The notes beneath the pieces were generated by a model that ran no database searches, was not told the DNA's origin, and worked only from the letters and a program-made list of their open reading frames with translations. Below are positions 15,746-20,799 of a stretch of DNA of 35,053 nucleotides, in pieces. A program made the position numbers and the translations under genes. The DNA lies in assembly GCA_039111535.1 (NCBI GenBank), contig JBCCIM010000046.1, positions 1 to 35,053 on the forward strand, read 5' to 3'. This DNA comes from Bacteroidota bacterium (GTDB taxonomy: Bacteria; Bacteroidota; Rhodothermia; Rhodothermales; JAHQVL01). How positions within the stretch are numbered: the first letter of the stretch is position 1; every line of letters begins with the position of its first letter.

Positions 15746-15765
15746 AATGCTAGAAAAATAGCATT
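15746..15765. promoter_or_regulatory. Operator 1 (BlaI/MecI-type) upstream of the repressor gene
   Basis: AATGCTA (15746-15752) and TAGCATT (15759-15765) are perfect 7-base arms around six bases, ending five bases before the -35 hexamer. The TGCTA...TAGCA core is shared with operator 2 and recalls the dyad sites of BlaI/MecI repressors. Confidence 0.75.
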
Positions 15766-15770
15766 TTTTC

Positions 15771-15799
15771 TTGACATGCCTGCATCTTTCCTTTATGTT
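15771..15799 (+). promoter_or_regulatory. Sigma-70-like promoter of the BlaI/M56 operon
   Basis: TTGACA (15771-15776), 17 bases, then TATGTT (15794-15799). This places the start of transcription near 15806, just before operator 2. The -35 is perfect and the spacing ideal; the -10 has two mismatches to TATAAT. It is bracketed by the two operators, which predicts strong autorepression. Confidence 0.65.
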
Positions 15800-15809
15800 T
15801 ACCCGTAGG

Positions 15810-15825
15810 TGCTAGTATTCTAGCA
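15810..15825. promoter_or_regulatory. Operator 2 (BlaI/MecI-type) over the predicted transcription start
   Basis: TGCTAG-TATT-CTAGCA is a perfect 6-base inverted repeat lying about 4-20 bases past the predicted start site. It has the same TGCTA/TAGCA half-sites as operator 1, about 62 bases centre to centre from it. Confidence 0.75.
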
Positions 15826-15859
15826 TTTACAACAGGCATCTTTAACCTGGAACGTAACG

Positions 15860-16252
15860 ATGAAAGACAAAAACTCTCCCATGGATCTGGGGGCCCGTGA
15901 GCGTCAAATCATGACCTTTATTTACCGTAAGGGGGCAGCGACAGCTGCTGAGGTCATGGAAGGCATTGCAAATCCGCCCAGCTATTCCGGCGTCCGGGCC
16001 ATGTTGCGCATCCTGGAGGAGAAGGGACACCTCAAGCATCACAAAGAAGGGGCGCGGTATGTGTATTCGCCGACCATTACGTCTGCTGAGGCCGGCCGTT
16101 CTGCGATTGATTATATGATCCAGGCTTTTTTTAGCGGCTCTGCTGAACGGGCCGTAGCTGCATTGCTCGATCACAAAGGGGATGAGCTTTCGGAAACCGA
16201 TCTCAACCGCCTCTCTTCCATGATTGAACGCGCCAAACAACAGGAGGACTAA
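15860..16252 (+). CDS. BlaI/MecI/CopY family transcriptional repressor
   Basis: 130 residues. Residues 10-75 form the winged helix (LGARERQIMTFIYRKGAATAAEVMEGI...YSGVRAMLRILEEKGHLKHHKEGARYVYSP), diagnostic for this family. The remaining helices (SAIDYMIQAFFSGSAERAVAALLDH...LSETDLNRLSSMIERAKQQ) are the dimerisation region. The family represses its own operon and is inactivated when the partner M56 protease signals, classically by cleavage of the repressor. Two TGCTA/TAGCA dyads flank its promoter. The gene ends two bases before the M56 gene starts, so the two are translated from one mRNA. Start ATG 15860 has a weak GGAA about 10 bases upstream. Confidence 0.96.
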   Translation: MKDKNSPMDLGARERQIMTFIYRKGAATAAEVMEGIANPPSYSGVRAMLRILEEKGHLKHHKEGARYVYSPTITSAEAGRSAIDYMIQAFFSGSAERAVAALLDHKGDELSETDLNRLSSMIERAKQQED

Positions 16253-16254
16253 CC

Positions 16255-18717
16255 ATGCAAGCACTACTTGAATCTACATTATTATCGGCCAACATGAGCC
16301 CCTGGATTGCCAATCTGATGCTCCTGTTTTTCAAAGGTGTATTGGTACTTTCTGCAACATGGATTATTGCTTACGCTTTGCGGGGCAGTGCTGCTGCTGT
16401 GCGCTATACTGTATGGTGCGCCGGCCTCTTGAGCCTGATGCTGCTCCCGGTCCTTTCCAGCGTGCTTCCGGCATGGCACCTCGATTACCTTGCTGACCTA
16501 TCTGTTGAAGAAATCGACAGGGCTGTGACTACAACACCGCCGGCTGATGCTATCCCAATGCCCTCCGTCACAGAAGAGGCCTTGCCTCCTGATGTTGATT
16601 CATCAGACGAAGAAGCTTTGTTGCCACCCACGCAATCCGCTACACCTGATGGGGCAGATACGTCTTGGGCTGCCAGCCTTTCAGCCTACTTTAAAGGGCT
16701 GAATTTTCACTGGACAACGTGGGCATTTGTGATCTGGTTGTTGGGCGTTTTTGTAGCCCTGACGCGGCTTGCTCTGGCACACGCCGGCGCTACGCTCCTC
16801 GTCCGTAAATCGGAACTCGTACACGACGAAGACTGGCAATTGCTGGCAGAGCGGGTAACGAAGCGCCTGGGTATTGAAGGGTATGTGCGCCTGCGCAAAA
16901 GTGCCTGGACTGCCGTGCCGATGAGTGTTGGTATTCTGCGGCCTGTTGTCGTTTTACCTGAAAATGCCAATGAATGGGATGAAGCGCAGCGCCGCACCGT
17001 AATGTACCACGAGATGGCCCATGTGAAGCGACGCGATTGCCTTTTACATCTGTTGACACAAATTACCTGTGCGCTCTACTGGTTCAATCCGCTGGTCTGG
17101 GTTGCTGCCCGACAGTTGATGATTGAGCGTGAAAGAGCCTGCGATGATCTGGTACTGGAAGCCGGCGTGGAAGCTGCCAGTTATGCTGAAACATTGCTCC
17201 AGACTGCCCGGCAGATAAAAAGTGCTGAGTGGTCGAACCTCGCTACCCTTTCCATGGCCCGTCAGTCTCAACTTGAAGGCCGCCTACTTTCGATACTAGA
17301 TCCTATGCGTAGAAGAAACTTAAACAAAGCCAGCCTTGTGCTCTCTGTATTTATGGTTGCCTGTATTGTACTGCCATTGGCGGTAATGCAGCCGGCAACT
17401 GCCCAACGGGTATCCGATATTCCCCAGTCAATTGCCAGTGCGCCGGCTGTAGCGCCTGTATTACCGGGAATTACCAGCGCAGCACCTGTATTTGCGCCAA
17501 CACCAAACCGTTTGGCTTCTCCCGTACCAGTAATTGTCCCAACAAACCCTGCCGCAGCTCCTGTGGCGACGTTGCCTGACAGGTATCCTGCCAGTCCTGC
17601 ACCAGTAATGCTGCCGGGACCAATTGCCACCTTTCCCGGGAAAATCAGTGAATCCGATATGTTAATGTCTGATGTGATGATTGACTCACTGTCAATCGAC
17701 CAGATCATTCAGTTGCGTAAATACGGGATTGATGCTGATTTCATCACAGAACTGAAGGAGCTTGGATATACCGAGCTATCGTATTCAACCCTGGTTCGCC
17801 TTGGGAAGTATGGTGCAAGAGCCTCGTACATCAGAAAGATGCGCGACGCCGGCTATACAACCCAGAGCCTGGATGCGTACGCAGAAATGAGCAAGTATGG
17901 CGTGAATCCTGATTATGTTGCGATGATCAATGAGCTGGGATACACAGGCCTATCCGCTGATGAACTGACTAGACTCTCTAAATATGGCGTTGATCTTGAG
18001 CTTGTTGAAATGCTTGACGCGTATGGGTATGACAACCTTGACGTAGACGACCTCGTGAATGCCCGGAAGTATGGTGTGCAGCCTGATCTAATCGAAGCGT
18101 TGGGCAAATATGATTACAAAAACCTCGACCTTGACGATCTGATTCGAGCCAGTAAGTACGGCGTCAATGCACGGACACTCGATTGGATGAATGAAAACGG
18201 TTATGGTGACGCAAGCCTGAATGATGTCATAGATGCCTCGAAATATGGCGTGCGCCCTGATCTGGCGTCAGATCTAAAAGAAGCCGGGTATGATCTTTCA
18301 CTGGATGAATTGATTCAGGCAAGCAAATATGGTGTAAGTGGTAGCCTGGTTAAATCGCTTAATAGCTACGGCTATGAGAACCTGACGGCTGATGAGCTGA
18401 TCAGTGCGAGCAAGTACGGCGTGCAAGATCGTGTGATGGAATCGTTGATCAAATACGGCTACCGCGACTTATCGTTGAATGAAGTGATTTCGCTATCGAA
18501 GTACGGCGTAGACAACCGATATCTGCAGGAAATGAGCGAGTTAGGTATGGACCTTGACGCTGATGACCTGATTCGAATGCGCAAATACGGTGTGGATGCC
18601 CGGTACATTAAAGAACTCAAAGCCGCCGGCATCGACGAAATCTCTGTCGAAAAGTTGATCGATATGCGCAAGCATGGTGTAGATGCCGACTTCATCAAGT
18701 CTCTCAAAGACAACTAA
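16255..18717 (+). CDS. M56 (BlaR1-like) membrane metalloprotease with 12 periplasmic 29-residue repeats
   Basis: 820 residues. Transmembrane segments lie at about 18-42, 48-72, 154-178 and 358-378. The zinc protease motif is H252-E-M-A-H256, with a further acidic ligand candidate in ERERACDD (291-298), as in BlaR1/MecR1. A Pro/Ala-rich linker (about 385-470) follows the last membrane segment. From residue 478 to the end there are 12 tandem repeats of 29 residues with consensus -LS-DELI--SKYGV----I--L---GY-, in place of the penicillin-binding sensor domain. By family logic, a signal on the periplasmic repeats activates the cytoplasmic-side protease and removes the upstream repressor. The repeat region is rich in Asp, Tyr and Lys and predicted helical (two short helices per unit). 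The ligand is unknown. Confidence 0.92.
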   Translation: MQALLESTLLSANMSPWIANLMLLFFKGVLVLSATWIIAYALRGSAAAVRYTVWCAGLLSLMLLPVLSSVLPAWHLDYLADLSVEEIDRAVTTTPPADAIPMPSVTEEALPPDVDSSDEEALLPPTQSATPDGADTSWAASLSAYFKGLNFHWTTWAFVIWLLGVFVALTRLALAHAGATLLVRKSELVHDEDWQLLAERVTKRLGIEGYVRLRKSAWTAVPMSVGILRPVVVLPENANEWDEAQRRTVMYHEMAHVKRRDCLLHLLTQITCALYWFNPLVWVAARQLMIERERACDDLVLEAGVEAASYAETLLQTARQIKSAEWSNLATLSMARQSQLEGRLLSILDPMRRRNLNKASLVLSVFMVACIVLPLAVMQPATAQRVSDIPQSIASAPAVAPVLPGITSAAPVFAPTPNRLASPVPVIVPTNPAAAPVATLPDRYPASPAPVMLPGPIATFPGKISESDMLMSDVMIDSLSIDQIIQLRKYGIDADFITELKELGYTELSYSTLVRLGKYGARASYIRKMRDAGYTTQSLDAYAEMSKYGVNPDYVAMINELGYTGLSADELTRLSKYGVDLELVEMLDAYGYDNLDVDDLVNARKYGVQPDLIEALGKYDYKNLDLDDLIRASKYGVNARTLDWMNENGYGDASLNDVIDASKYGVRPDLASDLKEAGYDLSLDELIQASKYGVSGSLVKSLNSYGYENLTADELISASKYGVQDRVMESLIKYGYRDLSLNEVISLSKYGVDNRYLQEMSELGMDLDADDLIRMRKYGVDARYIKELKAAGIDEISVEKLIDMRKHGVDADFIKSLKDN
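17686..18714 (+). repeat. Twelve tandem 29-residue (87-base) coding repeats, KYGV type
   Basis: Units begin with SLSIDQIIQLRKYGIDADF and end with EISVEKLIDMRKHGVDADF. Lengths are 29 residues, with units 8 and 11 one residue shorter and the last one truncated. The near-invariant core is KYG-V/I, followed about 12 residues later by GY. At the base level the units are diverged, so this is an old protein repeat rather than a recent DNA expansion. Confidence 0.9.
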
Positions 18718-18792
18718 CGTACAAACACGTTAGGCTGCAGTGTACCCTGTCGGAAGATGTACATGCTGCAACACACAAACCTGACTGGTTCA

Positions 18793-20001
18793 ATGAAAAG
18801 AACATTATACGCCCTTGCAACCCTTTTACTGATGGGTGGGGCAACAACACAATACCTGGCAAATGCTGCGTCTAATGAAGCAGATACACAGCCGGCCCAA
18901 TCGACCCGCTCAGCGGACATCACGGGTACCTGGATTGCTGAATTCCAGGAGCACAAGTGGCGCGGCGTTTCTGAAACGCTTTGGATTACCATGCGTGCCA
19001 ACACGAAACGCGACCGTCACGGCTTTAATTTCACCATTCCGCTCAAGGACCTTGATGGTTTGGCTATTTCTCGCGGGCACAACGGGAAATCGAGCGTTGC
19101 GTTTCAACTGCCGCGCGAAGCTGGCGTGTTTGCCTTCGATGGCCAGTTTGTGGATGACGCTGGCTCAGGGACGTTCGATTTTACGATAAGCGAAACGTAT
19201 GTCCGCGACATGGGCCGGCTTGGGTACAAGTCGCTCGGACAAGACAAGTTGCTCCAATTGGCGATCCACGACGTGACGACCAGCTTCGTTAAAGAACTCG
19301 ACAAACTCGGATTTGCCGATCTGAGTTACGATGATCTGCTGGCCTCTGCCATTCACGGATTGACGCCGGAATATATCCGCGATATTCGCCGGTTTGGATA
19401 CAAAGATATTACCCATGATGAGTTTATCGCGATGCGCATTCATGGCGTCACCGTCGAGTATATCGAAGAAATGGCTGCCCTTGGGTTTAGCGACCTGCCT
19501 TATGATGAACTATTGGCTGCACGTATCCATGGCGTATCTACCGATTTTGTTGGGGAATTTCAGGAGATCGGTTTCAACCTGAAATCGCTCGACAAGCTTG
19601 TTGAGTTGCGTATCCATGGTGTGAGCCCGGCCTACGTACAATCATTTGTAGATGCCGGCTATGACAATGCACCGCTGAAGGAATACGTGCAGATGCGTAT
19701 TCATGGCGTGAGCGAGCAGTTTGTTGAGACAATGGGGAAACTGGGATATGACAACGTATCGATGGACAAGCTGGTCGAGATGAAAATCCACGGTGTGACC
19801 AGTTCGTACGTTTCCGAACTGGCAGATCTGGGCTATAAAAATATTCCGGTCAACAAGCTCGTTGAGATGCGCATTCATGGTGTAAGCGCGTCATTCGTAC
19901 GCGAAGTAAAAGAAGCCGGCTACACCCCGCGCGTGAACAAGCTTATTGAAATGCGTATCCACGGCGTGAGTCCACGCATGTTGAAGGCAACCAAAGGATA
20001 G
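18793..20001 (+). CDS. Secreted protein with beta-rich N-domain and 29-residue IHGV repeats
   Basis: 402 residues from ATG 18793, chosen because it opens a clean signal peptide (MKRTLYALATLLLMGGATTQ, cleavage near ANA). An in-frame ATG at 18757 adds 12 residues. Residues about 40-130 are a beta-rich domain (ITGTWIAEFQEHKWRG, IPLKDLDGL, REAGVFAFDGQF, GSGTFDF). From residue 147 to the end come eight full repeats and one partial repeat of 29 residues. Their consensus is D-LVEMRIHGVS--YV-EL--LGY-, clearly the same fold as the KYGV repeats in the preceding M56 protein, with IHG replacing KYG. It follows the protease gene by 75 bases with no terminator between. It could be the protease's ligand, inhibitor or regulated output. 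Homologous repeat proteins beside M56 genes exist in other phyla as far as I recall, but no function is known to me. Confidence 0.85.
   Translation: MKRTLYALATLLLMGGATTQYLANAASNEADTQPAQSTRSADITGTWIAEFQEHKWRGVSETLWITMRANTKRDRHGFNFTIPLKDLDGLAISRGHNGKSSVAFQLPREAGVFAFDGQFVDDAGSGTFDFTISETYVRDMGRLGYKSLGQDKLLQLAIHDVTTSFVKELDKLGFADLSYDDLLASAIHGLTPEYIRDIRRFGYKDITHDEFIAMRIHGVTVEYIEEMAALGFSDLPYDELLAARIHGVSTDFVGEFQEIGFNLKSLDKLVELRIHGVSPAYVQSFVDAGYDNAPLKEYVQMRIHGVSEQFVETMGKLGYDNVSMDKLVEMKIHGVTSSYVSELADLGYKNIPVNKLVEMRIHGVSASFVREVKEAGYTPRVNKLIEMRIHGVSPRMLKATKG
19231..19998 (+). repeat. Tandem 29-residue coding repeats, IHGV type
   Basis: Eight full units and a 24-residue final unit with near-invariant IHGV (first unit IHDV, second IHGL), and GY or GF about 12 residues later. 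The period equals that of the KYGV repeats in the upstream gene. The beta-domain ends in a half unit (YVRDMGRLGYK) just before the first repeat. Confidence 0.9.
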
Positions 20002-20004
20002 GCT

Positions 20005-20023
20005 GTATTCAGCACCTGAATAC
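20005..20023 (+). other. Hairpin directly after the IHGV-repeat gene
   Basis: GTATTCAG (20005-20012) and CTGAATAC (20016-20023) pair perfectly around CAC, four bases after the stop codon. It is stacked against the larger hairpin at 20025-20055 and may form part of a double terminator or an mRNA 3'-end stabiliser. Confidence 0.5.
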
Positions 20024-20024
20024 A

Positions 20025-20055
20025 AATAAGGCCGGCTACCATAGCCGGCCTTATT
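20025..20055. terminator. Bidirectional 14-bp hairpin closing the BlaI/M56/repeat operon
   Basis: AATAAGGCCGGCTA (20025-20038) and TAGCCGGCCTTATT (20042-20055) pair perfectly around CCA, followed by AATTTT on the plus strand and preceded by T-rich sequence for the minus strand. It lies between converging genes. Confidence 0.85.
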
Positions 20056-20067
20056 AATTTTCAGCAC

Positions 20068-20799
20068 CTAGCGGAAAAAGAAACGGGCAAGTAGTACCAG
20101 ATCCGGCGAGCCGTCATCGACACCAATTCCGAATGCCGGCCTGAGTCGATTGCCGCCGTTTAGCCGGTAGTCCGCGCCAAACGTTAGCAGTGCACTGTCC
20201 ATGTCTGTCAGAAAGTTGAGTTCTGCAAGAAATTGCAGATCAGGATCTGTTTGCCAGACGAGGCCGCCGGCAAGGCGCAGGGAATAGTCGTAATCATCAC
20301 CCTGTTCGAGGAATTCGATGCCAAACACACCCGTAATGGCAAGGGTAGGGTTTGTGGCATGACGGAGTGCCCCAAACACCCTGACATCAACGTCCCCCTG
20401 TCCAACGTCTTCATCACCTACAGGAAGGGTGAGTCCACCGCCCACGGATATGTCCGTGTTGTTATCTGACGAAATCAGGTACCGGCCCGTAACGCCTATG
20501 TCTGAGAGGCCGTTGAGATTGTCACCAAATTCCCGATCCACCGAGATATAAACAAGATCGACGCCCAGTTCAAAAGCCCGGCCAAGCCGAAATCCCAACT
20601 GCGCGCCGACATCAAGCACATTGGCGCCGTCGAAGTCGGCATAGTTCAGGCCGGCATCCCCATAAAAGCCGCCAACATGTGAGCCGTCTCTGAAAAAATT
20701 TTGAAATGTTCTTGCATCAGGTTGCGCTTCTGCTGTCAATGCAAAACTAAGCAGGATACCGCAATAAAGCAGTCTTTGCATAATTCGAATTATTCCCAT
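20068..20799 (-). CDS. Outer-membrane beta-barrel protein, hypothetical
   Basis: 243 residues with a signal peptide (MQRLLYCGILLSFALTAEAQ, cleavage after AEA) and alternating strand-like segments ending in LVLLARFFFR, the aromatic C-terminus of a barrel. Repeated turns such as GGGLTLPVGDEDVGQGDVDV and TFGADYRLNGGNRLRPAFGIG resemble small transporter-like or OmpW/opacity-type barrels, but no family is confidently recognised. Either ATG 20799 or ATG 20781 can start it; the second gives a more usual signal peptide. It converges on the repeat-protein gene, sharing the hairpin at 20025-20055. Confidence 0.7.
   Translation of the reverse strand: MGIIRIMQRLLYCGILLSFALTAEAQPDARTFQNFFRDGSHVGGFYGDAGLNYADFDGANVLDVGAQLGFRLGRAFELGVDLVYISVDREFGDNLNGLSDIGVTGRYLISSDNNTDISVGGGLTLPVGDEDVGQGDVDVRVFGALRHATNPTLAITGVFGIEFLEQGDDYDYSLRLAGGLVWQTDPDLQFLAELNFLTDMDSALLTFGADYRLNGGNRLRPAFGIGVDDGSPDLVLLARFFFR

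Follow-up and report, generated by a model that had tools for sequence, protein, structure and literature searches.

Within a 35,053-nucleotide stretch of contig JBCCIM010000046.1 from a Rhodothermia-class Bacteroidota bacterium (GCA_039111535.1), hereafter the window, three plus-strand genes form one operon. A BlaI/CopY-family repressor gene of 130 codons (15860..16252, +; Pfam Penicillinase_R PF03965, 2.1e-27) is followed after two bases by the gene for an 820-residue M56 membrane metalloprotease with a repeat ectodomain (16255..18717, +; Pfam Peptidase_M56 PF05569, 5.9e-32). The third gene encodes a secreted repeat protein of 414 residues, hereafter the partner (18757..20001, +), which has a signal-peptide-like N-terminus and Met13 as a possible start. 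The module represents a form of BlaR1/BlaI-type signalling in which the sensor is undescribed and the secreted product belongs to the repeat class of that sensor. These coordinates and Pfam matches confirmed the gene order, the two-base spacing, and the common strand described in an initial annotation of this DNA. That annotation also closed the operon with a single terminator. A perfect 12-bp hairpin was found at the operon end (20025..20055), common to the operon and a convergent gene (20068-20799), but the terminator scan did not list it, its T-tract being too short and weak. Rfam gave no match within the window.

Repressor, Promoter, and Protease

Two palindromes flank the promoter, a feature overlooked by the initial annotation. 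The sigma-70-type promoter, TTGACA-17-TATGTT (15771..15799, +), matches the consensus at 10 of 12 positions and lies between candidate operators O1 and O2. O1, TGCTAGAAAAATAGCA (15748..15763), is an imperfect palindrome just upstream of the -35 element, and its motif is kept before blaI in relatives. O2, TGCTAGTATTCTAGCA (15810..15825), is a near-perfect palindrome about 10 bp past the -10 element. The repressor gene thus appears to carry palindromic operators in its own promoter, in the manner of BlaI, MecI, and CopY. Its product contains the Penicillinase_R winged-helix domain, and the PDB alignment spans the N-terminal domain only. Like the CopY/CopR copper repressors, it belongs to this repressor superfamily, with CopY_TcrY as the top NCBIfam match. 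However, the score of 49.5 bits is far below the family cut-off of 121.95, so the repressor does not qualify as a CopY_TcrY equivalog, and its operator is not the copper-repressor sequence TACANNTGTA (PMC7253601).

The M56 protein carries a HEMAH zinc site at residues 252-256 (17008..17022, +). The catalytic residues H252, E253, H256, E293, D297, and R343, including the HExxH and downstream Glu/Asp of a gluzincin site, were invariant in 34 repeat-bearing M56 proteins. The structure model contains a protease domain and four long hydrophobic, membrane-type helices (residues 16-41, 47-70, 153-185, and 358-377), and Foldseek matched this membrane protease part to cryo-EM structures of S. aureus BlaR1 (8ext, 8exp, and 8exq; prob 1.0). 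Beyond the last helix, a Pro/Ala-rich disordered linker of roughly 95 residues (about residues 378-475; 17386..17679, +; predicted local distance difference test score, pLDDT, <50 over most of it) leads into a 12-unit helical repeat ectodomain of the KYGV version (residues 481-820; 17695..18714, +), identified by the model and by unit matches. The model contains 12 helix pairs at residues 481-818, with pLDDT mostly >90. Sequence, structure model, and unit matches therefore upheld the earlier description of a HEMAH protease with four membrane segments and 12 repeats of 29 residues. The proposal that the array stands in place of a beta-lactam sensor was likewise borne out, since residues 481-820 are helical repeats and include no penicillin-binding domain. 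The NCBIfam model blaR1_generic scored 109 bits against a cut-off of 400 and matched nothing past residue 377.

Secreted Partner and the 29-Residue Unit

The partner was modeled with a pLDDT of 91.3 and a predicted TM-score (pTM) of 0.77. Its N-terminal beta-rich domain, also overlooked by the initial annotation, covers residues 55-144 (18919..19188, +) and forms six strands in the model. Eight residues of this domain (G57, W59, A122, G123, G129, G136, G138, and F140) were invariant in 39 relatives. The remainder, residues 145-414 (19189..19998, +), is an array of 29-residue units in an IHGV version, identified by unit matches. A Foldseek search of the partner model against PDB and viral libraries returned no convincing fold, and lipocalin-like matches to the beta domain were below significance.

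Each unit runs from helix A (9 residues) through a four-residue loop (H-G-V-T or equivalents) to helix B (9 residues), which a longer loop follows. Unit matches were far above chance, with E-values mostly from 1e-7 to 1e-12, and arrays among relatives range from 3 to 14 units. The 6.6 Mb genome of the organism has the repeats in this operon and nowhere else. For the window, Pfam and NCBIfam gave no convincing curated match to the repeats or to the secreted protein, and no plausible repeat family was common to the 39 partner proteins, which gave scattered matches only. HEAT, TPR, UBA, and LytB identities were dropped because these scattered Pfam matches pointed to no consistent family. The 29-residue repeat is in no curated family searched, and the module is new to those libraries. 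In the open-access literature, we found neither this repeat described nor any BlaI regulon reported to include genes of this kind.

Distribution and Exchange of Ectodomains

A contig scan of public genomes seeded with five partner proteins, and hence partner-biased, returned 70 loci, mostly from Acidobacteria and Rhodothermia, with others from Chloroflexi, one Planctomycetota, and a few genomes labeled Proteobacteria. The initial annotation had considered similar repeats next to M56 genes in other phyla possible, and they were found there. Classification by hidden Markov models identified the triad of BlaI, M56 with repeats, and beta domain with repeats in 47/70 loci, and the gap between M56 and partner genes in triads was mostly <100 bp. 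An unbiased scan of 149 acidobacterial and 245 Rhodothermia-class genomes was seeded with the M56 repeats instead. The acidobacterial genomes held 10 repeat-bearing M56 loci, seven with an adjacent partner, two with a fused partner, and one with neither. In the Rhodothermia class, the partner was adjacent in 6 of 14 determinable loci, and one further locus lay at a contig end. In total, 13/24 loci had an adjacent partner and 2/24 a fused one. The partner is a common but not obligatory companion of repeat-bearing M56 proteins, and the rarity that the initial annotation had named as grounds for abandoning the link was not observed.

Four genomes outside Rhodothermia carry the partner beta domain inside the M56 polypeptide (L089, with two tandem copies, L092, L140, and L148). 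In the latter three, an M56-beta-repeat fusion accompanies BlaI and no separate partner is present. Stand-alone genes for the beta domain with repeats are common in Acidobacteria (10 loci in the 149-genome sample), and in Chloroflexi (L104 and other Caldilineaceae loci) the repeats are fused to a SHOCT-like N-terminus. Many genomes of one Rhodothermia-class family, f16, encode a repeat protein of about 235 residues with one apparent membrane helix and no adjoining M56 gene (L161-L167). One M56 protein of 1440 residues (L155, genome G196) has a very long repeat array, for which Pfam gives only spurious families. A prophage or plasmid origin was rejected, as no relatives were found in phage or plasmid records. 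The lone viral-contig match was a marginal local match in a 1870-residue phage-type protein, in whose locus the repeat profile found nothing.

The repeat-bearing M56 domains are not one clade (approximately unbiased test, p about 1e-80). In the tree, the Rhodothermia members cluster with M56 proteins of their own class that have HEAT ectodomains, and most acidobacterial ones fall in a lineage containing the M23-ectodomain M56 of the organism itself. M56 ectodomains have evidently been exchanged, whether by gain or loss, which the unrooted tree does not distinguish. The HEAT-ectodomain proteins (C55 of the same genome, G030, G239, and G001) share the Rhodothermia BlaI/M56 lineage and operator type, and G030 also encodes a secreted protein whose repeats are of the class found in its sensor; they differ in having HEAT in place of the 29-residue unit. 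The organism itself has seven M56 genes with differing ectodomains (29-residue repeats, HEAT, tandem M23, TonB_C, and unassigned), the other six being C55, C71, C95, C16, C254, and C3 (L012-L017). At least four of the seven lie directly behind a BlaI gene.

In Acidobacteria, beta-domain and repeat genes adjoin DUF4097 genes at two loci (L139, 4774-6925, and L147, 4684-6852). At the first, an extracytoplasmic function (ECF) sigma factor is also present, and the anti-sigma position is taken by a HEAT-bearing protein. A further protein (L060) fuses DUF4097 to M56 with HEAT and 29-residue units. The DUF4097 toastrack envelope-stress proteins have another fold, and the relationship is one of association only.

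Operators and Regulon

Palindromes were found upstream of blaI in 47/49 triad or fusion loci. They were of TGCTA type in Rhodothermia and a few acidobacterial loci and of TACGAA type in most Acidobacteria. In the genome of the organism, the strict TGCTAG/CTAGCA palindrome occurs only at this operon, as O2. TGCTAA/TTAGCA versions are found upstream of the HEAT-type blaI (C55), a DUF5916/CBM9-type gene (C33, L208), and an erythromycin-esterase-family gene (C44, L209). Matches to the first operator pattern on C89 and C110 are asymmetric and inside coding frames and were read as chance. Another BlaI gene of this genome (C181:86-501, L219), whose downstream neighbor is cut off by the contig end, has two TACGAA-type palindromes at its start. 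After that of C71, it is the second BlaI here with operators of the acidobacterial type.

Among six acidobacterial genomes, TACGAANNNNTTCGTA matched in four, at five sites (G245, G246 twice, G248, and G355), all at the promoters of these operons; G309 and G398 had no match. The Rhodothermia operator pattern, TGCTARNNNNYTAGCA, was scanned in 13 further genomes and the organism's own, and 37 sites were examined. Of these sites, 32 lay outside open reading frames of >=100 codons, which cover 90% of the loci (binomial P about 1e-27), and most were 10-160 bp upstream of a start, mostly of secreted or envelope genes. Their total was no higher than that of a reversed control pattern; the sites are non-random in position, not in number. 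Targets included blaI-M56 operons, stand-alone secreted repeat genes (L054, L056, and L160), and a secreted HEAT protein (L199). DUF5916 genes were also targets in several genomes, as were erythromycin-esterase-family genes and MacB-type permeases in two each, and one site preceded a sortilin/BNR protein. The sites at DUF5916/CBM9-type and erythromycin-esterase-family genes suggest an envelope or drug-defence regulon. Palindromes stand directly before the former in several Rhodothermia genomes and before the latter in two (L188-L190, L192, L193, and L202).

Genomes G030 and G239 each place a secreted repeat gene behind a BlaI-type operator, their BlaI operons carry HEAT-type M56 proteins, and no repeat-bearing M56 was detected in either. 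G030 combines a HEAT-ectodomain M56/BlaI operon (L204) with a secreted HEAT protein (L199/L207) and a secreted 29-residue-repeat protein (L056), both behind BlaI-type operators. Here too, sensor and product have a fold in common, HEAT with HEAT, in parallel to the operon of the window.

Resemblance to TALE Repeats

A partner-repeat profile built from eight sequences was searched against all PDB sequences. It matched 23 transcription activator-like effector (TALE) sequences with E-values from 9.7e-12 to 6e-6, which are inflated by the repeats, and nothing else below 0.007. In the alignments, each TALE unit corresponded to about one 29-residue unit; in one case, 134 profile positions spanned 154 residues. 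The same eight sequences reversed had no PDB match up to E = 1. Foldseek matched the M56 array to TALE repeats with prob 1.0 and TM-scores of at most 0.24. No member of the repeat proteins matched any TALE Pfam family, and the sensor-side profile preferred designed helical repeats over TALEs. The likeness to a designed nanocage, 8v2d, was taken as generic helical repeat resemblance. The two repeat classes appear alike in their two-helix solenoid and in a profile match of about one unit per unit. The unit here is 29 residues rather than the 33-35 of TALE, and its location is exported or periplasmic. A published screen for TALE-like tandem repeats covered unit sizes of 30-43 residues (PMC5472282) and could not have found this repeat.

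Because of the E-value inflation, the sensor-side result, and the low TM-scores, we limit the claim to a TALE-like fold and sequence pattern and do not extend it to descent. A bolder reading would make the unit a true TALE relative, a multi-phylum extracytoplasmic recognition solenoid linked with BlaI proteolytic switches in different M56 lineages, with sensor and secreted effector sharing a modular code. We regard this as possible but doubtful. If it were true, TALE-type DNA readers would be one branch of a wider bacterial family of recognition repeats.

Proposed Circuit and Alternatives

The analysis supported the initial view of the operon as a real signalling module, and the switch is, by these sequence comparisons, conserved across several bacterial phyla. 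As in BlaR1/BlaI and MecR1/MecI, an M56 gluzincin with HExxH adjoins a BlaI-family repressor, and the promoter appears autoregulated through palindromic operators. In those systems, too, the sensor fold is common to an induced secreted product. Once activated, BlaR1 itself cuts BlaI, and it has a sensor akin to class D beta-lactamases (PMC9834060). The present system differs in its helical repeat ectodomain in place of a penicillin-binding sensor, its operator sequence, and its output, a repeat protein rather than a beta-lactamase or penicillin-binding protein.

By this analogy, we propose an autoregulated envelope circuit in which sensor and secreted output share a fold and the output binds the sensor's ligand, closing a feedback loop. 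At rest, BlaI would occupy the two operators flanking the promoter, as their conservation suggests. The M56 protease would face the cytoplasm, with the flexible linker carrying the 12-unit solenoid outside the membrane. When the solenoid gains or loses its ligand, the protease may be activated, BlaI removed as in the BlaR1 system, and the operon induced. The main output would be the secreted protein, in which a solenoid of this kind is attached to a beta-rich domain. A single envelope ligand is probably recognized by both sensor and effector, just as the sensor of BlaR1 relates to class D beta-lactamases, and we infer that ligand capture by the effector would protect the envelope and reset the switch. 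In Rhodothermia, operators precede stand-alone secreted repeat genes and other envelope genes, so the repressor seems to have the secreted protein among its outputs. We hold this circuit with about even confidence. Several observations weigh against it. No recognizable operator was found at the stand-alone partner genes of Acidobacteria, and 9/24 repeat-bearing M56 genes (about 40%) have neither an adjacent nor a fused partner in the unbiased scan. Rhodothermia hold two related BlaI types, which makes the pairing of paralogue and operator ambiguous. Unit position 3 is H in about 88% of partner units, Q in 81% of acidobacterial sensor units, and Y in 68% of Rhodothermia sensor units, a split that could mean different ligands.

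That same divergence at one loop position could instead mark a complementary interface, with the partner binding the M56 array repeat to repeat and so constituting the signal, either as an intrinsic inhibitor that envelope damage titrates away or as a ligand-presenting co-receptor. The close linkage and co-occurrence of the two genes and the existence of M56 proteins with a fused partner domain fit such contact. However, fused proteins with a single array, M56 genes without an adjacent partner, and the two genomes with an operator-controlled secreted repeat protein and no detected repeat-bearing M56 (G030 and G239) together favor the secreted protein as circuit output. Of the initial proposal that the array is a new sensor read or blocked by the partner, the replacement of the sensor domain stands, while repeat-to-repeat contact found no support and is not required by the fused and partner-less cases. 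We consider direct contact a minority possibility. The array may also sense the geometry of the envelope mechanically or by spacing, the secreted protein being structural and the repeats touching the cell wall or outer membrane with no soluble ligand. The long disordered linker, the elongated array, and the HEAT, M23, and TonB_C modules on other M56 proteins of this genome and its relatives are in keeping with that role. Against it, the H/Q/Y-G loop residues are strongly conserved beyond the hydrophobic core, suggesting recognition, and array length varies across the range given above; we judge it unlikely.

TALE repeats contact phosphates at the early second-helix region. The profile and fold matches to these repeats could imply that the arrays bind extracellular nucleic acid and that the circuit senses environmental or neighbor DNA. 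Each unit of the present repeat has Pro-Glu or similar acidic residues early in that helix, which appears to argue against one-base-per-repeat DNA binding. The unit of 29 rather than about 34 residues and the sensor-side preference for designed repeats also speak against this reading, which we consider highly improbable. Equally improbable is an ordinary M56/BlaI operon with a low-information repeat spacer and a passenger gene. Many M56 proteins do bear assorted C-terminal repeats, yet both genes and the operators are conserved in different M56 lineages and several phyla.

Herein, our findings indicate that the BlaR1/BlaI mechanism, familiar chiefly from antibiotic resistance, works as a general switch of the envelope in which the ectodomain can be exchanged. 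They suggest a rule that the ectodomain often shares its fold with a protein that the circuit secretes: repeat pairs with repeat, HEAT with HEAT, and BlaR1 with class D beta-lactamase. The TALE-like profile of the repeat makes the origin of modular recognition repeats testable, and with the operators, the regulon can be predicted in Acidobacteria and Rhodothermia that are uncultured.
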